Shown: positions 24,360-35,129 of the stretch, one piece after another
Numbering within the stretch: position 1 is the first letter of the stretch
Layout: each line of letters opens with the position of its first letter
NCBI RefSeq assembly: GCF_002007105.1
Contig: NZ_MVBC01000010.1
Span: 62,001-126,000 of the forward strand
Origin: Hymenobacter sp. CRA2
GTDB lineage: Bacteria > Bacteroidota > Bacteroidia > Cytophagales > Hymenobacteraceae
DNA length: 64,000 nt
Direction: 5' to 3'
Notes under the pieces: generated by a model
The model's database searches: none
Told to the model about the DNA's origin: nothing
Seen by the model: the letters and a program-made list of their open reading frames with translations, nothing else
Program-made: the position numbers and the translations under genes

Positions 24360-24857
24360 ATGAAAACCCTGTACCTGATGCGCCACGCCAAGTCGAGCTG
24401 GAACTTCGACGGGCTCAGCGACAAAGAACGGCCCCTCAACAACCGCGGCCGCACCGATGCGCCCCACATGGGGCAGGCCCTGGTGAAGCGCAATGTCCAG
24501 CTGAATCTGCTGGTGAGCAGCCCGGCCGTGCGGGCCCTGAGCACCGCCGCGCTGGTAGCCAAGGAGCTGGAATACCCCGCCGACCGCATCCACGTCATCG
24601 ACGGCATTTACGAGGCCGACCTGGACCGCCTGCTCGACATTATCCGCGACCTGCCGGACGAAGCCGATTCGGTGCTGCTGGTCGGGCACAACCCCACCAT
24701 CACCGACACGGTCAATGCGCTGTCGCCTTCGCCGGTAAACGAAATGACTACCGCGGCGATGGTGTGCCTGCGCTTCTCGACGGATAGCTGGCTGGATGCG
24801 CACCGCACCAACGCCGAGCTGTACTTCGTGGATTCGCCGAAGAACTACGAGGAATAA
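24360..24857 (+). CDS. sixA: SixA-like phosphohistidine phosphatase
   Basis: This histidine phosphatase superfamily protein of 165 residues is read from ATG 24360 (MKTLYLMRHAKSSW). The RHG-type motif here is RHA, with catalytic His9 and Arg8, as in SixA. The SSPAVRALSTA strand and VLLVGHNPTITD with the second catalytic histidine are present. SixA proteins remove phosphate from phosphohistidines of phosphorelay or PTS proteins. The gene is 114 bp upstream of ppk1 on the same strand, an arrangement that suggests a role in phosphate metabolism (inference). A 16-bp inverted repeat lies in the spacer. Confidence 0.85.
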   Translation: MKTLYLMRHAKSSWNFDGLSDKERPLNNRGRTDAPHMGQALVKRNVQLNLLVSSPAVRALSTAALVAKELEYPADRIHVIDGIYEADLDRLLDIIRDLPDEADSVLLVGHNPTITDTVNALSPSPVNEMTTAAMVCLRFSTDSWLDAHRTNAELYFVDSPKNYEE

Positions 24858-24971: not shown

Positions 24972-27065
24972 ATGCCGCACGACACCCAACCCACGCCCCT
25001 CTCAGCGGAGCCCACGCTGCTCAACCGCGAGCAAAGCTGGCTGAACTTCAACGCCCGGGTGCTGCAGGAAGCCCAGAACCCCGAGGTGCCTCTGCTGGAG
25101 CGGCTGAAGTTTCTGGCCATTTTCTCCTCCAACCTCGACGAATATTTCAAGGTGCGCGTGGCTACCCTGCGCCGGCTGCAGAACCTGAAGAAGAAAACCC
25201 GCGCCAAGCTGGGCGAAGACCCCGGCGAGCTGCTGCAGCAGGTGCTGACGGAGGTGGGGCGGCAGCAGGAAGTTTTCGGCGAGACGTTTCGTGACCAGAT
25301 ATTGCCGGAGCTGCACCGCCACCACATTCACCTGGTGACGGAACAGGACCTCACGGCCGAGCAGCACCAGTGGGTGCAGCAGTACTTCCGCGAGCGGGTG
25401 CAGGATCTGCTTTCCCCCGTCGTGCTCGACGACAACCTGCACCACCTGTTCCTGAAGGACCAGACCACCTATCTGACCTTTTACCTCACCGGCCACGCCA
25501 AAGGCAAAAAGGCCGAGAACGAGGAGCGGGTGCTGGTGATGGAGCTGCCCACCAAGCGCCACGGCGGCCGCTTCGTGCAGCTGCCCGACGCGGGCCCCGA
25601 GCACTACGTGATGTTTCTGGACGACGTAGTGCGCTGCTGTGCCCACGAGCTGTTTCCGAAGTACGAGGCGGTGGAGGTGCACAGCATCAAGATGTCGCGC
25701 GACGCGGAGCTGGACATTCAGGAGGAAGTATCGGGCAACCTGCTGGCCAAAATCAAGAGCAGCCTGCAGAAGCGCGAAACCGGCTACCCCGCCCGCCTGC
25801 TCTACGACCCGGCCATGCCCAAACCGGTGCTGCGGGCCATCATGCAGAAAACGGGCATCGGCAAGGAGGAACTGGTGGAGGGCAGCCGCTACCACAACTT
25901 CCGCGACTTTTTCGGCTTTCCGGGCTTCGGGCTGACCACGCTGCAGTACCCGCCGCAGGTGGCCCTGCCCCACCCCACGCTGCCGCGCGGCAAGGAAGAC
26001 AGCCTGCTGGCCGCCATCGGGCAGCGCGACCATCTGATTCACTACCCCTATCAGTCGTTCGATTACGTGACGCGGCTGATCAAGGAAGCCGCCAAGGACC
26101 CCGCCGTGACCGATGTGGGCATTACGCTCTACCGCGTGGCCGACAAGAGCAAGGTGGCCAAAGCCCTGCTCAAAGCCGCCAAGCACGGCAAGCAGGTAAC
26201 GGTGGTGGTCGAGTTGAAAGCCCGCTTCGACGAGGAATCCAACATCCGCTGGGCTGAGAAGCTGGAGCAGGCCGGCGCCACGGTCATTTACGGCGTGCCG
26301 GAGCTGAAGGTGCACGCCAAGCTGCTGCTCATCCGGCGGCAGGAAGGCGACGCTGCCCGTCATTATGCCTACCTGAGCACCGGCAACTTCAACGAAGCCA
26401 CCGCGCACGTGTACGCCGACCACGGCCTGTTTACGGCCGATGAGCGGCTGACCGCGGAAGTGGCCCGCGTCTTCGACTTCTTCCGCACCCGCGAAACGCC
26501 GGCACCGTTTGGGCACCTGCTCGTGGCCCCGTTTGAACTGCGCCAGCGCCTAAACCACCTCATCGACGTGGAAATCGAGCACGCACGGGCCGGCGAGGAA
26601 GCCTACATCATCCTGAAGCTAAACGCGCTGCAGGACGAAGGCATGATTCGCAAGCTCTACGAAGCCAGCCAGGCCGGCGTGCGCGTGGAACTGCTGATCC
26701 GGGGCATTTCGTGCCTGTTGCCGGGTGTGGCGGGCCAGAGCGAGAACATTCAGCAGCGCGGCATCGTGGACCGCTACCTGGAGCACGCCCGCGTGTACGT
26801 GTTTGCCAACGGCGGGCAGGAGCGCGTGTACATGGCCTCGGCCGACTGGATGACGCGCAACCTCGACCGCCGCGTGGAAGTAGCCTTTCCCATCTACGAC
26901 GCCGAAGTACGCCGCGAGGTGCGCTACCTAGTGGATTTGCAGCGCCAGGACAACCAAAAGTCACGCGACTGGCAAAACGAGTACCTGCGCGAAGGCGCGG
27001 AGGAAAAGCCGGTACGCGCCCAGGCGGAGACGTACGAGTACCTGCGCAAAAGGCGGAAGAAGTAG
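24972..27065 (+). CDS. ppk1: Polyphosphate kinase 1
   Basis: PPK1 (697 residues) reversibly polymerises the gamma-phosphate of ATP into polyphosphate. All four domains are present. The N-terminal helical part has REQSWLNFNARVLQEA and FLAIFSSNLDEYFKVRV. The head domain has VLVMELP. The C1 domain has HYPYQSFDYVTRLIKEAA and VHAKLLLIRR, whose His448 should be the autophosphorylated residue. The C2 domain has LEHARVYVFANGG and ASADWMTRNLDRRVEVAFP. It follows a sixA-like gene on the same strand and ends at a strong bidirectional terminator. Confidence 0.95.
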   Translation: MPHDTQPTPLSAEPTLLNREQSWLNFNARVLQEAQNPEVPLLERLKFLAIFSSNLDEYFKVRVATLRRLQNLKKKTRAKLGEDPGELLQQVLTEVGRQQEVFGETFRDQILPELHRHHIHLVTEQDLTAEQHQWVQQYFRERVQDLLSPVVLDDNLHHLFLKDQTTYLTFYLTGHAKGKKAENEERVLVMELPTKRHGGRFVQLPDAGPEHYVMFLDDVVRCCAHELFPKYEAVEVHSIKMSRDAELDIQEEVSGNLLAKIKSSLQKRETGYPARLLYDPAMPKPVLRAIMQKTGIGKEELVEGSRYHNFRDFFGFPGFGLTTLQYPPQVALPHPTLPRGKEDSLLAAIGQRDHLIHYPYQSFDYVTRLIKEAAKDPAVTDVGITLYRVADKSKVAKALLKAAKHGKQVTVVVELKARFDEESNIRWAEKLEQAGATVIYGVPELKVHAKLLLIRRQEGDAARHYAYLSTGNFNEATAHVYADHGLFTADERLTAEVARVFDFFRTRETPAPFGHLLVAPFELRQRLNHLIDVEIEHARAGEEAYIILKLNALQDEGMIRKLYEASQAGVRVELLIRGISCLLPGVAGQSENIQQRGIVDRYLEHARVYVFANGGQERVYMASADWMTRNLDRRVEVAFPIYDAEVRREVRYLVDLQRQDNQKSRDWQNEYLREGAEEKPVRAQAETYEYLRKRRKK

Positions 27066-27098: not shown

Positions 27099-27152
27099 AA
27101 AAACAGCCGTGCCCGAAACCAAGTGTCCCTGGTTTCGGGCACGGCTGTTTTT
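27099..27152. terminator. Long bidirectional terminator
   Basis: AAAAACAGCCGTGCCCGAAACCA and its exact complement form a 23-bp stem with an 8-nt loop and A/T tracts on both sides. It lies between convergent ppk1 and the gene ending at 27233. Confidence 0.93.
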
Positions 27153-28583: not shown

Positions 28584-31500
28584 TTAGAAGAGGAAGTCGA
28601 AGCCGATGTTGACCAGGCTTTCCTCGCCCACGGAGTACGTGGCGTTGATGACGGCCTGCTTCAGCACGTCGATCCAGATGCCGCCGCCCACGCCGGTATG
28701 GAAGGCGTCGATGCCGGTTTCCACGTCGTAAGGGCTGTACACGCGGCCAGCGTCGGCCAAGCCCATGATGCCGAACTTGCCCGGCAGCAGGTAGGCGTTG
28801 AAGGTGAAGAGCTGCACGCGCACTTCGGCGTTGGCGTAGGTCATGCCGCGGCCGGCAAAGCGCGTGCGGCGGTAGCCGCGCAGGTTGGTGGTGCCGCCCA
28901 GCGTGTTGGCCTGGTAGAAGCGGTAGTCGCCGAAGTTGCGCGCCGCCCCGATGCGTCCGGCCCAGGTGAGCTGGAAGGGGAAGTTCGGCGACACGTAGAA
29001 GCGCACTTCCGAGGCCAGGCGGCCGTACTTGAGCTTCTCGCCGTTGATCTGCGCGTTGTACTCGGCCGAGTTGTACCAGCGCAGGCCGATGCGCGGGTTT
29101 TTGGGCGAAGAGCTGGCGTCGAGGTTCAGGTAGGCCCGGCCGCCCACGTAGCGGTTCGTGCCGAAGTCGGACTCCCGGATGCCCGTAGCCGCGCCGGTGT
29201 AGCCGTTGTCGAGCCCGCGCTGGATTTCACGCCCGATCTGCGCCCGGTCGATGCGCCACTGGTCGTACTGCGGGCCGAAGCCGAACTTCAGGAAGCTGAA
29301 CACATCGGTTTCCAGCGTGGGCGAGAAGTTGAAGCGCGAGAAGCGGATGCGGTAGGTGTCGTTGATGGCGCGGTTGCCGAGCGGATTGCCGCTGCCTTCG
29401 TTCTGGGCCACGTTGCGGGTGTCGTTGCCCTCCCCGAAGTAGTTGTAGAGCAGCTGCGGGCCGTAGAGCTGCGAGTTGACGCGCAGGTCGTACTTGCCCA
29501 GCACGTCGGTAAATACGCCGGTGTAGCGCACGTTGTAAGCGTCGCGGCTCGGCGCGTAATTGGCCACCAGCGTCTGCTCGGTGGCGAATGGCTCGCGGCG
29601 GAAGCTGTAGGTGCGCAGCGTGCCGCCGCCCCCGATGAACACGCCGTCGTCGACGTTGTAGCCGAAGTACACGGCCGGCCCGAAGTAGGGCAGCTTGTAG
29701 TCCTTCTTGTCGGTGCGCGAGGGGTAGTCATACTGGCTTACCTCGGTGCCGGGCGCCAGGCGCAGGCGCGTTTCCTTGCCCGGCACGATGACGTTGCCCG
29801 TATCGGCGTCGTACACCTGCACCGAGTGCGGCCGCAGGAAGGAGCCGCCCTTGGTTGACACGTCCACGATACTATCGCGGTCGGTGCCGCCGATGATGCG
29901 CACGCGGATGCTGCTGGGCTGGTCGCCGCTCACGCGGTACGAATCGGTGCCGGCGAAGCCGTAGAGGCGAATTTCCTTGGTGGTCTTGCCGTCGTAGGTC
30001 TGCTCCCACAGCGTCTTGGTGGTCTTGCCCTCCTTGTTCACCTTCTTCACCAGCACGCGGGTTTTATCATCCGCGAGGCGCTCCACGAAGAAGCGTTCCT
30101 GCTTCTCGCTGCCCTTCACTTCCACTTTCTCGCTGAGCAACTCGGCGTAGTCGGCGGCCAGCTTGGGCAGCAGGTCGCGGCGGCTCTTGAGCTTGGCCGA
30201 AATTTCCGGTCCGTGCAGTTGGTAGATGTCAGCGGGCCAGCGTGAGCGAAGCGCCGAGTCGATGACGGCGTCGGTCAGGCGGGCCTTCATGTCCTCGGCG
30301 GTTTTCACCCAGTCGGCTTTCGATACCTCGCCCAGAAACACCCGGTCGTTGGCCAGCGCCGTCAGGTTCAGGCCTTTCCAGTCGGCGTAGTCCTCGCCGA
30401 AGTTCTGGAAGTTGCGCACGGCCCACTTGCGGCGGGCCAGCCAGGGGAAAAACCCGTCGCCCTTGAAAAAGGCAATGTCGCGGTCTTCGGGCACGGCCGT
30501 AAAGGTCCGGTCGCCTTCCTCGTCCTTGCTCTCGGCCCAGCGCCACTGGTCCTCGTGCCGGTCCCAGTCGCCGATCCACATGTCGAACAAACGGGAGCGG
30601 GCAAAGGCCTTGGGCCGGATGTGGTTGTCGTTGTCCTGGCGCAGGCGCTCCAGCACCTTGTCGGTGCCCACCAGGTTGGTGGCGTAGCCCAAGGAGGCCA
30701 CGTTGCTCTGGTCGTCCTTGGCGTCTTCTTCCAGGGCGGCGGGCGTGTTCTGGAAGCGCGCCAGGTACTGGCCCAGCAGCGGATCCTGCGGCACGTAGCG
30801 CAGTTCGGGGTTGGTGTGCAGGATGCCGGCGGCCTGGGCCAGCGGCGGAATTACGATGGAGCCGAAGGGGTGCTGGGCCGAAATCTGGTCCTGCAGAATG
30901 TCCTTGGCCGCCGACTCGCGCAGGGCCTCGGGCAGCACGGCCGCCGGGTCCTTGTCGAGCCCGCGGATGGTGTAGTTGCGGCCTTCTTCGTTGCGCACCT
31001 TCAGCGAAGCCGTCTGCTTGCCCCCGCCGATGCGGTAAGGCTCCAGCCCGCCCTTCTCGGTGGCCAGGTCCAGCACCTTGAACTTGACGGGCGTGGCCCA
31101 TTCCTGTCGGTAGTGCTTGCCGAAAAAGGCGTTGTGCAGGCCACTGCGCTGGTTGTAGCGCGGGTTTACGGCCACGGTCACGGTGGAGTCGGCGTAGTTC
31201 GGGCGGCCCTTAACGTCCACGTTGAAGGGGTCCGGGGCCATGGCTGCGTCGCCGGCCTGGGCCTGCTTGGCGTACATAGCCTGCCGGAACACCAGGTGGC
31301 CCGACTCGCCCTTGTCGTTCGGAATCCAGTACTCCAGCCATACCTGGCCGTTTTCGTAGTAGTTCACGCGGGCCCAGCCCTTCTCTTTGTCGGAGAACAG
31401 GGCTTCGCCGTCGCGGCCGGTGCGCACGTGCTGGGTTTTGCAGCCCGAGCCGGAGACAATCTGGTGCAGGTCGCCGACTTTGAAGTACTGCAGGTTGTGC

Positions 31501-32507
31501 TCGTGGCCGGAGGCGTACACCGTGTTCGGGTACTTGGCAAAAATATCCATCAGCCCCTTCTTGTACTGCTGGTACAGCGGGTGCGGAATGTCCTGCGACA
31601 CCCCGCCGTACTTGCGCGCAAAGGGGTATACCGAGCCGATAATCGGGAATGGGATGAAGGCGTACTTGTAGACGATGCTCAGCGGAAACAGGTGGTCGGC
31701 CAGGGTAAAGTAGCCGCCGTGAATGCCGTCGGAGAAAATGGGGTGGTGCGCCACCACCACCACGTTCTTGTTGCGGTGCTTGGCCATCAAGTCCTCCAGC
31801 TGGGTGAAGAAGTCGGCCTCGTTGGCCACGCCGCAGCCGCTGTTGGCGCCGTAGGGGCGCTCCGAGCTCTGCAAAAACCACTGCGAGTTGACGGCAATGA
31901 TGGCCAGGTTGTCCTGCACCAGGATTTCGTAGGGACCGGGGCAGCCGTTGGCCGGGATGTAGAAAGGCCCGGTGCGCGTGAAGGCGGCCGAGTCTTTGTT
32001 CATGTAGTCCTCGATAAAGGTCTGGGCCCGAATCACCTGGTCGAGCCCGCCCTTCAGGCCCTGCTTCCAGTCGTGGTTGCCGGGAATCATGTACTTCTCG
32101 CCCTTGTAGTTGCGCAGCACATTGATTTGCTCGATCAGGCGCTGCTCCGACACCTTGCGGTCCAGGGCGCCCTGCGGCGGCAGGCCGTACTCGTAGATGT
32201 TGTCGCCGAGGTAAATGGTGGTGCTCCGCTCGCCTTCCTTCATGATCTGCTTGCGCAGGAAGTTCAACGACGGTTCGCCGCCTGCTTCGGGCAGGGCAGG
32301 CTTGCCCACGTCGCCGATCAGGAAGACGGTGTAGCGCAGGGTGGAGCTATCGGGCGGGGTGAGTTTTTCCCAGTCCTTGCCGATGCCGCGGTAATTGGGG
32401 CGTTCGGGGTGCGCGGTCTGGGTTTTGGTGCCTTGGGCGAGGGCCGAAAACCACGGTCCCAGGCTGCCGACCAGCATCAGGAAGCTAGTCAGGAGAAGTC
32501 GGCTCAT
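28584..32507 (-). CDS. Metallophosphoesterase / kinase-like / BamA-type outer-membrane protein
   Basis: This 1307-residue protein is read from ATG 32507 (MSRLLLTSFLMLVGSLGPWFSALAQ signal peptide). Residues about 58-400 form a calcineurin-like phosphoesterase: FLIGDVG, YLGDNIYEYG, GNHDWKQG (about 142), AHHPIFSDG and GHEHNLQ (334-338). Residues about 485-720 look like a CotH/HipA/Fam20-type kinase: a Gly-rich RIGGGKQTASLKV and YTIRGLDK (N-lobe-like), GDWDRHEDQW with Asp649 as candidate catalytic base, and PEDRDIAFF with Asp677 as candidate metal ligand. The C-terminal 400 residues are a BamA/TamA-like barrel (GGTTNLRGYRRTRFAGRG) ending in GFDFLF. The phosphoesterase and barrel calls are firm. 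The kinase-like call is my inference. The enzymatic parts should face the periplasm. Confidence 0.85.
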   Translation of the reverse strand: MSRLLLTSFLMLVGSLGPWFSALAQGTKTQTAHPERPNYRGIGKDWEKLTPPDSSTLRYTVFLIGDVGKPALPEAGGEPSLNFLRKQIMKEGERSTTIYLGDNIYEYGLPPQGALDRKVSEQRLIEQINVLRNYKGEKYMIPGNHDWKQGLKGGLDQVIRAQTFIEDYMNKDSAAFTRTGPFYIPANGCPGPYEILVQDNLAIIAVNSQWFLQSSERPYGANSGCGVANEADFFTQLEDLMAKHRNKNVVVVAHHPIFSDGIHGGYFTLADHLFPLSIVYKYAFIPFPIIGSVYPFARKYGGVSQDIPHPLYQQYKKGLMDIFAKYPNTVYASGHEHNLQYFKVGDLHQIVSGSGCKTQHVRTGRDGEALFSDKEKGWARVNYYENGQVWLEYWIPNDKGESGHLVFRQAMYAKQAQAGDAAMAPDPFNVDVKGRPNYADSTVTVAVNPRYNQRSGLHNAFFGKHYRQEWATPVKFKVLDLATEKGGLEPYRIGGGKQTASLKVRNEEGRNYTIRGLDKDPAAVLPEALRESAAKDILQDQISAQHPFGSIVIPPLAQAAGILHTNPELRYVPQDPLLGQYLARFQNTPAALEEDAKDDQSNVASLGYATNLVGTDKVLERLRQDNDNHIRPKAFARSRLFDMWIGDWDRHEDQWRWAESKDEEGDRTFTAVPEDRDIAFFKGDGFFPWLARRKWAVRNFQNFGEDYADWKGLNLTALANDRVFLGEVSKADWVKTAEDMKARLTDAVIDSALRSRWPADIYQLHGPEISAKLKSRRDLLPKLAADYAELLSEKVEVKGSEKQERFFVERLADDKTRVLVKKVNKEGKTTKTLWEQTYDGKTTKEIRLYGFAGTDSYRVSGDQPSSIRVRIIGGTDRDSIVDVSTKGGSFLRPHSVQVYDADTGNVIVPGKETRLRLAPGTEVSQYDYPSRTDKKDYKLPYFGPAVYFGYNVDDGVFIGGGGTLRTYSFRREPFATEQTLVANYAPSRDAYNVRYTGVFTDVLGKYDLRVNSQLYGPQLLYNYFGEGNDTRNVAQNEGSGNPLGNRAINDTYRIRFSRFNFSPTLETDVFSFLKFGFGPQYDQWRIDRAQIGREIQRGLDNGYTGAATGIRESDFGTNRYVGGRAYLNLDASSSPKNPRIGLRWYNSAEYNAQINGEKLKYGRLASEVRFYVSPNFPFQLTWAGRIGAARNFGDYRFYQANTLGGTTNLRGYRRTRFAGRGMTYANAEVRVQLFTFNAYLLPGKFGIMGLADAGRVYSPYDVETGIDAFHTGVGGGIWIDVLKQAVINATYSVGEESLVNIGFDFLF

Positions 32508-32734: not shown

Positions 32735-33958
32735 ATGGAACCGACCTCTCTCCTCAAACCGGCCAAGGCCGAAATCGTCAAGCAGGCCAAAGCGTACGTC
32801 GAGCAGCTCTTCGACCAGCGCCTGCCGCGCCAGCTGGTGTACCACACCTTCAAGCATACCAATACGGTAGCCAAAGAAGCCGCTGCCCTCGGCCAGGCCG
32901 CCCGCCTCTCTCCTGCCGACCAAGAAGCCCTGGTGCTGGCCGCCTGGTTTCACGACACCGGCTACCTCGACCGCTACGACGGGCACGAGTACCGCAGCAT
33001 GGAGCTGGCCGAAGAGTGGCTCACGCAAAAAGGGTACCCCGCCGAGCGCATTGCCCTTATTAAGGACATCATCCGGGCCACGCACCGCGACGAACCGCGC
33101 GACACCGAGCTGCAAAAGCTGCTGGTGGATGCCGACCTGAGCAACCTCGGCCGCGAGGACTGCCTGGCCGACGCCGAGCTGCTGCGCACGGAGTGGGAAG
33201 CCACGCACGGCAAGGTGTATTCCAACATCGAATGGGCCGAGTTTCAGCTGGATTTTCTGCTGCAGCACAAGTATCTCTCCGACGCGGGCCAGGAACGGTA
33301 CGGAGCCCGGCTCAAGGAAAATATCCAGGAGCAGCGCAAGTCACTGAAGAAGCAGGAGAAGAAGGCCAAGAAAAAGGAGGAGGAAGCCGAGGGCTTCGCC
33401 GAGGGCAAGCGCGGGGTCGAAACCATGTTTCGGGCCACCTACAGCCAGCACCAGCGCCTCTCGCAGATGGCCGACCAGAAGGCCAACATGATGATCAGCC
33501 TGAACACGGTGCTGCTGTCGGTCATCATCACCTACCTCGGCGCCAAGACGTCCACCATCGGGCCGGCTTTCACCAAAAACCCCGTGCTGGCCGTGCCCAT
33601 GGGCCTGCTGGTGGCCACAGCACTGGCTTCGGTGGTGACGGCCATCCTCTCGGCCCAGCCCGACGTGACCAGCTTCAAATGGCTGCGCCGCTCCCCGCAG
33701 ATTGCCACCAACCGCCGCGTCAACCTGCTGTTCTTCGGCAACTTCACCAAGCTCAGCCTCGACAACTTTCAGGAAGGCATGCACGAGCTGATGCGCGACC
33801 GGGAATTGCTCTACAACAACATGATAACCGACATTTACTACCTCGGCGAAGTGTTGGCCCGCAAGTACCGCCTGCTGCGCATCAGCTACACCATCTTCAT
33901 GGTCGGCCTGATCCTGACCGCTCTGGCCTTCGCCATCGTGATGCTGTACAAGGCATAA
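32735..33958 (+). CDS. HD-domain PycTM-type (Pycsar effector family, DUF5706) membrane protein
   Basis: The protein has 407 residues read from ATG 32735. Residues 15-190 are an HD phosphohydrolase: YHTFKH (His37), WFHDTGY (His73-Asp74), DGHEYRS (His84), RATHRDEP and a VDADLSNL aspartate, so the metal ligands look intact. A charged coiled coil (KKQEKKAKKKEEEAE) follows. The C-terminal 170 residues match the DUF5706 Pycsar effector family: ADQKANMMISLNTVLLSVII opens helix 1 (about 252-270), with helix 2 at 283-307 and helix 3 at 382-405. In Pycsar defence, PycTM is opened by cCMP/cUMP and damages the membrane. Here an HD domain may hydrolyse a nucleotide signal. It is convergent, seven bases apart, with a cyclase-like gene. 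Confidence 0.85.
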   Translation: MEPTSLLKPAKAEIVKQAKAYVEQLFDQRLPRQLVYHTFKHTNTVAKEAAALGQAARLSPADQEALVLAAWFHDTGYLDRYDGHEYRSMELAEEWLTQKGYPAERIALIKDIIRATHRDEPRDTELQKLLVDADLSNLGREDCLADAELLRTEWEATHGKVYSNIEWAEFQLDFLLQHKYLSDAGQERYGARLKENIQEQRKSLKKQEKKAKKKEEEAEGFAEGKRGVETMFRATYSQHQRLSQMADQKANMMISLNTVLLSVIITYLGAKTSTIGPAFTKNPVLAVPMGLLVATALASVVTAILSAQPDVTSFKWLRRSPQIATNRRVNLLFFGNFTKLSLDNFQEGMHELMRDRELLYNNMITDIYYLGEVLARKYRLLRISYTIFMVGLILTALAFAIVMLYKA

Positions 33959-33965
33959 GGGTGAA

Positions 33966-35129
33966 CTAGTTCACTACCTCAAACAGCCCCGCCAGCTGCC
34001 GCACCGACTGGCCCAGCCAGCGGTGCAGGCGGTGGAGCTGGCCTTTGCGCACCAAGCGCCGGGCGCTGGCAATGTGGCCGTAGCGAAACTCCATCGTCAC
34101 CAAGCAGTGGCCTGCATCGATGGCCTCAAGGCGGAAAAACAGCAGGGCATTGGGAAACAGGCGCCAGTGCGCCACCTTCTCCACGTACTCCATGTGGTCG
34201 TCGTCGGTGCTTAGGTGCTGCACCACCTGCAGGTCGATCTGGCCGGTGTACAGGTCCAGCTTGTAGTTGGCGCCGGGGCGGCGGGCTTTGCTCGCGTCGT
34301 AGTGCACGGCGCTGGTGCCCGCCAGCCAGCGGGGGCGCTGGCGCATATTGCTCACCACGCGCTGCACCTGCTGCACGGGCGCGGCTACCACGCGTTGCAC
34401 CTTCACGCGGCAGGCCACGGGCAGCTTGCCATCGACCTCGTCGGCCTGCACCAGCAGCCGCAGCGGGGTGAGGTAGGCATAGAAGTAACGGATTTCGCCC
34501 AAATACTCGTAGGCGGTGGCGCTGCGCTGCAGGCGCGTCCAGGCAAAGCAGCGCTCCACTTCGGCGGGGTCCTGGGTGCGGAAGTAGTCCTCGGTAAGTA
34601 GCACGTACTCCGAGCCGGCCACGTTGTTTTTGAGCAGGCGGTGCGCCACTATCACGTCGCGGCCCAGCAGCTTCTTAAACTCCCGGATGTCGGCCACGCT
34701 CACCCGGCCGTAGTGCCCGATGATTTTAATCGTCAGCCCGGCCTCCTGCAGCGCCGCCGACAGCTCCGAATCGGTGTCGCGGGCCACCACGCGCAGGTAG
34801 TTCTGAAAGTCCAGGAAGATGCGCCGGCACTGCTGCACCAGCTCGGCCACCGGCGGCGGTGGCCCGAGGCGGTAAAACAGAATGGCGTCGCCCTGAATTT
34901 CGGCCACCTGCAGGTCGGAGCAGTTGGCTTCAATCAGGATTTCCAACAAATCGGCCACCAGATGCGGCGCCTGCGGGTGATTGGCCTCTTCGATAAAGCG
35001 CGTAAAGCCGCTGATGTCTGGAATCAGCAGCAAGGCGGGCTGGGTATCGTCGGCCGCCCCGCCCGGCCGGCCCGGCTGGCGCCGGCCGGCGGAGCGGCGG
35101 GCCGCGCGCAATTCATCGAGTAGGCCCAT
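33966..35129 (-). CDS. Class III cyclase-like DUF2652 protein with C-terminal SRPBCC-like domain
   Basis: This 387-residue protein lacks a signal peptide. Residues 32-200 match the class III nucleotide cyclase homology fold as found in DUF2652: LLIPDISGFTRF with metal-ligand position Asp38, and EIQGDAILFY with Asp81. Glu77 sits where adenylate cyclases have Lys and guanylate cyclases have Glu. The C-terminal half (about 235-380) reads like an SRPBCC/START-type ligand-binding domain (ACRVKVQRVVAAPVQQVQRVV, HWRLFPNALLFFRLEAI). Cyclase activity of DUF2652 is not established to my knowledge. Its convergent neighbour is an HD-PycTM protein, which makes a nucleotide-signal link attractive but unproved. 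Confidence 0.75.
   Translation of the reverse strand: MGLLDELRAARRSAGRRQPGRPGGAADDTQPALLLIPDISGFTRFIEEANHPQAPHLVADLLEILIEANCSDLQVAEIQGDAILFYRLGPPPPVAELVQQCRRIFLDFQNYLRVVARDTDSELSAALQEAGLTIKIIGHYGRVSVADIREFKKLLGRDVIVAHRLLKNNVAGSEYVLLTEDYFRTQDPAEVERCFAWTRLQRSATAYEYLGEIRYFYAYLTPLRLLVQADEVDGKLPVACRVKVQRVVAAPVQQVQRVVSNMRQRPRWLAGTSAVHYDASKARRPGANYKLDLYTGQIDLQVVQHLSTDDDHMEYVEKVAHWRLFPNALLFFRLEAIDAGHCLVTMEFRYGHIASARRLVRKGQLHRLHRWLGQSVRQLAGLFEVVN

Follow-up and report, generated by a model that had tools for sequence, protein, structure and literature searches.

A predicted kinase-like domain between a phosphatase and a BamA-type barrel in a protein family of Bacteroidota

What is the long, unnamed segment that separates the phosphatase from the barrel in one protein of Hymenobacter sp. 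CRA2, and could it be an active kinase? The gene in question, hereafter the kinase-barrel gene, lies in a stretch of 64,000 nucleotides (contig NZ_MVBC01000010.1, positions 62,001 to 126,000; the window) and was matched at 100% in its own genome (G000:C1). A preliminary description of this gene held that its product joins a metallophosphoesterase, a kinase-like module and a BamA-type barrel, so that opposing phosphatase and kinase activities would be tethered at the outer membrane. The three-part architecture is borne out here, the phosphatase by its ligand residues and the kinase-like middle and the barrel by predicted structure, and the reading that we favour, with some reserve, is an outer-membrane barrel protein with an active kinase-like domain and a phosphatase resembling tartrate-resistant acid phosphatase (TRAP). 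From the N-terminus the parts run signal peptide, phosphatase, kinase-like domain, beta-rich linker and Omp85-type barrel (Table 1).

As the preliminary description had supposed, neither Pfam nor NCBIfam has an entry that matches the middle itself; these two databases and PADLOC identify nothing but the phosphatase and, at weak scores, the barrel, phmmer run against the PDB with the full-length sequence gave only weak phosphatase matches, and a sequence profile of the middle recovered from the PDB just one chain, at chance level. A model of residues 415-940 (AlphaFold2, 56 sequences) was obtained with a mean predicted local distance difference test score (pLDDT) of 90.4 and a predicted template modelling score (pTM) of 0.91, and all thirteen PDB chains that Foldseek matched to it at an expectation value (E) of 0.001 or below belong to proteins of kinase fold: PI4KII-alpha, CotH (two rows), HipA (five), HipT (two), YihE, ADCK3 and Rio2. 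Two of the five HipA rows, 3dnu among them, are titled MDT protein and are presumed by us to be HipA. Kinase-fold status was taken from the entry titles and, for YihE, from the accessible part of PMC12189002. The model resembles two-lobed kinases, at low template modelling scores (TM-scores), rather than a fold without such lobes, and a two-lobe protein-kinase-like fold for the middle is well supported by prediction and very probable. The best match is PI4KII-alpha (PDB 4hnd, E 1.4e-5), a human lipid kinase with no sequence-level match to the window protein; CotH (5jd9) matches at E 3.5e-5 and HipA/HipT at E 4.7e-5 (3dnu). The likeness to CotH, HipA and Fam20 kinases proposed earlier therefore holds for CotH and HipA, whilst for Fam20 there is no Pfam match and no entry in the best 50 of the 618 Foldseek matches.

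The likeness to CotH (PF08757) extends to sequence motifs. In hhalign the middle met a profile of 18 CotH proteins (from 20 loci; L068 gave no sequence and L078 was out of frame) at E 0.006 and 0.004, whereas eight unrelated profiles gave E of at least 0.058 with the query for which CotH gave 0.004. The alignment pairs GDWDRH with a GxWDxY stretch and PEDRD with PYDYD (IPxDxD), and the CotH profile retrieves PDB 5jd9 with the corresponding motifs; the distance from Asp649 to Asp675, 26 in the window protein, is 25-27 in 52 of the 56 aligned members and 26 in 17 of the 18 CotH proteins, so that both the CotH motif (WD ... IPxDxD) and its spacing are found here. This pairing, together with the like spacing, points to Asp649 as the probable base and to Asp675 as the probable metal ligand, as far as sequence comparison goes. 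CotH differs in having neither barrel nor phosphatase and in sharing 8-9% identity in structural alignment, and neither the window protein nor any of the 56 members matches PF08757 at E<=1. HipA/HipT (PF07804) proteins share the loop pattern [N/D]xDxHxx[N/Q] but give no PF07804 match; HipA (18 of 20 loci aligned, L176 and L178 being partial) met the middle at E 0.029 first and at 0.14 with a larger alignment, a score within the range of unrelated proteins, and was dropped as parent family. Since HipA and CotH, two accepted kinase families, miss each other in the same comparison (E 0.16), hhalign is evidently blunt at this distance. HipA and HipT toxin kinases are cytoplasmic. CotH acts on the spore coat (PMC12189002, accessible part).

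The motifs on which the kinase proposal had been built are all in place (GGGKQTASL; YTIRGLDK, residues 512-519; GDWDRHEDQW; and PEDRDIAFF, residues 673-681, which holds Asp677), and conserved candidates stand where a Gly-rich loop, a lysine, a catalytic Asp and a metal-binding Asp would be expected. Conservation was counted in an alignment of 56 rows (the best-scoring loci from both genome samples described below, duplicates removed), in all 189 unique copies, and in the 100 copies found without a loop-pattern scan (the motif-free set); 80 loci came from a pattern in which parts of the catalytic loop are fixed, and counts over the 189 copies, as over the 111 relatives considered below, are therefore biased towards that loop. 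Gly494 and Gly495 are each kept in 53/56 rows. In the three sets respectively, Lys519 is kept in 54/56, 182/189 and 95/100, Glu593 in 54/56, 181/189 and 94/100, Asp647 in 56/56, 186/189 and 98/100, Asp649 in 49/56, 171/189 and 88/100, and Asp675 in 56/56, 185/189 and 97/100; Asp677 is found in 54/56 and 182/189. The expectation that the Gly-rich loop, Asp649 and Asp677 would be conserved among homologues was thus confirmed, although of the two aspartates then singled out as key residues Asp677 gives way to Asp675, which is the better DFG-like fit (56/56 against 54/56, with the CotH spacing). Lys519, Glu593, Asp649 and Asp675 are jointly kept in 87 of the 100 motif-free copies. The other 13 comprise five barrel proteins that have lost the site (L022, L023, the second copy of L135, L140 and L154), one match without the site (L153), one replacement of Glu593 (L157) and six replacements of Asp649 (L025, L034, L155, L003, L030 and L143).

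The N-terminal part matches Pfam PF00149 at residues 60-272 (E 5.9e-7), and a profile of such parts (n = 41, from 40 of 108 relatives plus the window protein) retrieves tartrate-resistant/purple acid phosphatases from the PDB, led by mammalian TRAP (1war and 2bq8, E 2.3e-11 and 3.1e-11), as well as GAP50 (E 1.3e-10). The motifs GDVG, GDNIYE, GNHD and GHEH, on which the preliminary description had drawn, stand at residues 65, 101, 143 and 334, and the D, D, N, H, H, H ligand set of a purple acid phosphatase-like metallophosphoesterase is present as Asp66, Asp102, Asn144, His254, His335 and His337, which we take to be the metal ligands from the known fold. All six are kept in 97 of 111 relatives with an N-terminal phosphatase-type region, and a simple pattern finds a signal-like or lipoprotein-like start in 105 of the 111. 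Mammalian TRAP is a single-domain secreted protein, unlike the multi-part protein here.

At the other end, a model of residues 415-1307 (AlphaFold2, 61 sequences, namely the window protein and 60 of the 151 relatives that qualified, rows without Lys519 omitted; mean pLDDT 90.0, pTM 0.86) closes in long strands, counted from the DSSP string, and is matched by Foldseek to BamA first (E 4.5e-10) and to TamA (E 8.8e-9), with SAM and TOC entries also among the best 50 matches listed. NCBIfam Omp85_fam is met at residues 1124-1307 (E 3.6e-22, under the curated cut-off), and the last residue is Phe in 141 of the 162 members that have a barrel or a phosphatase part, as fits outer-membrane barrels. The C-terminal part is accordingly predicted to be a BamA-type barrel. 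Residues 794-918, ahead of it, carry LYGxxGxDxF and GGxGxD-like family motifs that by eye resemble calcium-binding repeats. With a PF00149 domain N-terminal to an Omp85 barrel (Omp85_fam below cut-off), the window protein belongs to the 'Metallo' subfamily of Omp85, a PF00149-Omp85 fusion group described in 2014 (Heinz and Lithgow, PMC4104836). The accessible part of that paper calls PF00149 a metalloprotease, and gives no description of the middle; the main text uses no word beginning with phosph or kinase.

A domain search met the middle in 112 of the 296 phylum genomes sampled and in 18 of the 198 genomes of a class-level sample sharing some genomes with the first, which argues that the middle is no chance product. 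Among the 189 unique copies, some short rows of which are fragments at contig ends, 109 have the phosphatase-kinase-barrel order and two are cut versions of it, 51 are kinase-barrel proteins and 27 consist of the kinase-like part alone. On a FastTree phylogeny of 187 of the 189 copies the three architectures require 16 changes, implying that parts were repeatedly gained or lost. No phosphatase part is present in 43 of the 100 motif-free copies, of which 34 keep the four kinase residues, and the kinase-like part is on this evidence an independent module; the picture of a single fused protein holds for the 109, but the kinase-like part often occurs without a phosphatase. With moderate confidence, the sequences suggest that it is the more constant element of the two. 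The first eleven loci listed from the loop-pattern scan are all from Hymenobacter, and over 497 columns the middle shares 88% identity with that of Hymenobacter sp. 15J16-1T3B. The genome of the window itself holds a second full-length copy (L155, C22:490934-492373) with altered phosphatase ligands and altered Asp649, possibly a catalytically dead paralogue, and a pair of divergent standalone kinase-like genes (L141, C2:48605-51865), one with Asp649 and one with Ser649.

How far does this support catalysis? On the predicted fold and conserved residues we regard an active kinase-like domain as plausible, and rather probable, but a number of observations weigh against it. Over the thirteen structural matches the TM-score is 0.13-0.30 by query length and 0.18-0.36 by target length, with root-mean-square deviations of 8.6-18.9 A, which makes the match a distant one; no Pfam kinase family matches the window protein or any of the 56 members; and hhalign assigns probabilities of just 6-8.5% to CotH, which is not significant, and 1.7% to HipA. 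The fit to the protein-kinase pattern fails at the catalytic-loop Asn position (Asp+5), which is Gln in 174/189 copies and Asn in only 10/189, and Asp649 is replaced among the 189 by Ser (8), Gly (4), Asn (2) or Glu (2). Fourteen N-terminal domains have damaged phosphatase ligands, and 11 of these 14 proteins keep the kinase residues, although nine of the 11 came from the loop-pattern scan and in the motif-free set the figure is two of five, the other three being the Hymenobacteraceae paralogue set L025, L034 and L155, altered at both sites; the two sites may therefore decay in a partly linked way, to judge from these sequences. The main objection concerns the phosphate donor, since ATP is not known to be available in the periplasm.

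These points bear on a pseudokinase, in which the fold would bind nucleotide or metal and sense or regulate the phosphatase or barrel with no phosphate transfer. The Gln in the catalytic loop, the lack of any periplasmic ATP of which we know, the replacement of Asp649 in 7/56 rows and in a set of standalone copies, and the existence of degenerate forms, three of which (L022, L023 and L140) lack Lys519 too, all speak for it; we nonetheless consider it doubtful, since the four candidate residues are so often jointly kept. Moreover, standalone copies with Ser649 adjoin a standalone Asp649 copy in 7/7 cases (L003/L004 of the own genome, L030/L024 of G188, L143, L203, L229, L242 and L245), as if an intact partner were needed, and in L203, L229 and L242 the paired frames lie in tandem on the same strand, separated by 7 to 31 bases when frames are taken from stop to stop, the distance to the start codon perhaps being longer. 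All the pairs come from Hymenobacter, Pontibacter or the window's family and may thus reflect a single event. They recall the kinase Fam20C and pseudokinase Fam20A (PMC5413348, accessible part), a likeness that is no evidence for such a mechanism; the Fam20 kinases belong to the secretory pathway and lie outside the cytoplasm.

If the kinase-like domain is active, the protein might work as follows. The BamA-type barrel would anchor it in the outer membrane, with the kinase-like domain, of the CotH/PI4KII/HipA sort, and the phosphatase probably on the periplasmic side, a topology that we infer. The Gly-rich loop would bind a metal-nucleotide or other phosphate donor together with Lys519 and Asp675, and phosphate would pass to a protein, lipid or glycan of the envelope, Asp649 serving as base; the phosphatase tethered to the domain in most members would take that phosphate off again or clear phosphorylated compounds. 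That kinase and phosphatase act in opposition on one substrate is a tentative guess, reasonable in itself but more apt to be wrong than right.

Gene neighbourhoods, compared over at most 20 kb around each of 78 loci and the window (n = 79), contain PycTM in 48 cases, an SdiA-regulated/phytase-like gene in 24, the polyphosphate kinase PPK1 in 21 and a SixA-like gene in 9. In the window the PPK1 gene and the histidine phosphatase gene, for which we assume the name SixA, lie on the opposite side from the HD-PycTM gene, separated from the kinase-barrel gene by a DUF6268 gene. PycTM lies within 10 kb of the domain in 48 of 61 domain-carrying genomes (57 have PycTM) against a random expectation of about 0.43 genomes, and PPK1 in 19 of 61 (59 have PPK1) against about 0.56, expectations that are rough, the 61 genomes being related rather than independent cases; across 99 phylum genomes PycTM occurs in 31/36 with the domain and in 4/63 without it. 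The 12 of 61 genomes that have no nearby PycTM include G073, G107 and G208, whose only copy has lost the kinase residues, and the other nine include copies with intact residues. Of the 50 PycTM genes, 38 encode 389-445 residues, like the HD-PycTM protein of the window, and 12 encode 191-271, a length at which the HD part is probably missing. Pfam names PycTM as a Pycsar effector and PADLOC recognises it too; HD-PycTM, often found close to the kinase-barrel gene, may serve a housekeeping function. CotH genes near the domain (G212, G253) were considered as a further link and rejected (CotH in 18/36 genomes with the domain versus 21/63 without, p 0.13).

The linkage to PPK1 invites a further explanation, phosphate scavenging or polyphosphate processing, in which the TRAP-like phosphatase and a phosphotransferase would act among polyphosphate, nucleotides and envelope molecules without forming a signalling pair. 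Besides the 19/61 genomes, both PPK1 copies of the own genome lie one gene from a copy of the kinase-barrel gene, the second being next but one to L155 on C22, and an SdiA-regulated/phytase-like gene stands directly upstream on the same strand in 21/67 cases; but PycTM rather than PPK1 is the strongest link, and we hold the proposal to be questionable. Very unlikely is a structural adaptor in which the middle replaces POTRA domains and aids outer-membrane protein biogenesis, its kinase look being a relic: it does occupy the place of the POTRA domains of other Omp85 proteins, and Omp85 proteins of known role act in protein assembly or export (PMC4104836, accessible part), but it also occurs in proteins without a barrel (27/189, some cut by contig ends), its best-kept residues include the expected kinase active-site ones, and the recurring neighbours identified concern phosphate or PycTM, bam and tam genes not having been searched for.

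Table 1. Features of the kinase-barrel gene and its neighbours, in window coordinates.
Feature	Position	Strand	Basis
Whole coding sequence, 1307 residues	28584..32507	minus	Open reading frame, ATG at 32507, stop at 28584
Sec-type signal peptide ...SALA-QG, residues 1-24	32436..32507	minus	Sequence read by eye
Purple-acid-phosphatase/TRAP-like metallophosphoesterase, residues 57-405	31293..32339	minus	Pfam PF00149, profile, six ligands
Kinase-like domain, residues 474-792	30132..31088	minus	Predicted fold; limits set from secondary structure
Gly-rich loop GGGKQTASL, residues 494-502	31002..31028	minus	Conservation
Lys519, candidate nucleotide-binding lysine (putative assignment)	30951..30953	minus	Conservation
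Glu593, candidate lysine- or metal-binding Glu (putative assignment)	30729..30731	minus	Conservation
Catalytic-loop-like GDWDRHEDQW, residues 646-655, Asp649 candidate base	30543..30572	minus	Conservation
Asp675 in PEDRD, candidate metal-binding (DFG-like) Asp	30483..30485	minus	Conservation; spacing like CotH IPYDYD
All-beta region between kinase-like domain and barrel, residues 794-918	29754..30128	minus	Secondary structure of both models
Predicted Omp85/BamA-type barrel, residues 941-1307, 16 long strands, Phe end	28587..29687	minus	Model, Foldseek
HD domain and PycTM membrane domain gene, divergent neighbour	32735..33958	plus	PF01966, PF18967
Polyphosphate kinase PPK1, 1.5 kb from kinase-barrel gene	24972..27065	plus	Four PP_kinase Pfam domains
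SixA-like histidine phosphatase, 3.7 kb from kinase-barrel gene	24369..24857	plus	PF00300, E 5.9e-13

Elsewhere in the neighbourhood, a DUF2652 protein encoded at 33966-35129 on the minus strand adjoins HD-PycTM and is possibly its partner; its N-terminus looks cyclase-like by eye and its C-terminus gives a weak Polyketide_cyc2 match, below cut-off. A near-perfect inverted repeat (27102-27149), with about 20 paired positions and bordered by T runs, lies between PPK1 and the DUF6268 gene and is likely to be a two-way terminator. No sigma-70-like site was found in a promoter scan.

We know of no resident outer-membrane kinase of such a fold. In the literature listed, which covers few subscription journals and no preprints, neither a kinase-like domain in an Omp85 protein nor a name for the middle was found, which is weak evidence of novelty. 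A Riemerella metallophosphoesterase (cited in the accessible part of PMC10281475) was set aside as, presumably, a different protein. Phosphorylated outer-membrane proteins have been reported in Gram-negative bacteria (PMC10450907, accessible part). Taken together with its neighbours, the kinase-barrel protein could belong to a trans-envelope phosphate-control system of Bacteroidota, in which an outer-membrane kinase-phosphatase turned towards the periplasm would be functionally coupled to inner-membrane PycTM and to polyphosphate metabolism and would phosphorylate envelope molecules, the donor perhaps being polyphosphate or exported nucleotides instead of cytoplasmic ATP; this wider scheme is speculative and, as it stands, unlikely. 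If the kinase-like domain is active, it would represent a widespread outer-membrane-tethered kinase in Gram-negative bacteria, would unite two opposite phosphate chemistries in one protein and would give a name to a domain of 112/296 sampled genomes of the phylum, whilst bringing PPK1 and PycTM, a domain whose name comes from anti-phage effectors, into the biology of the envelope; with its candidate residues specified, the kinase reading can be tested directly.

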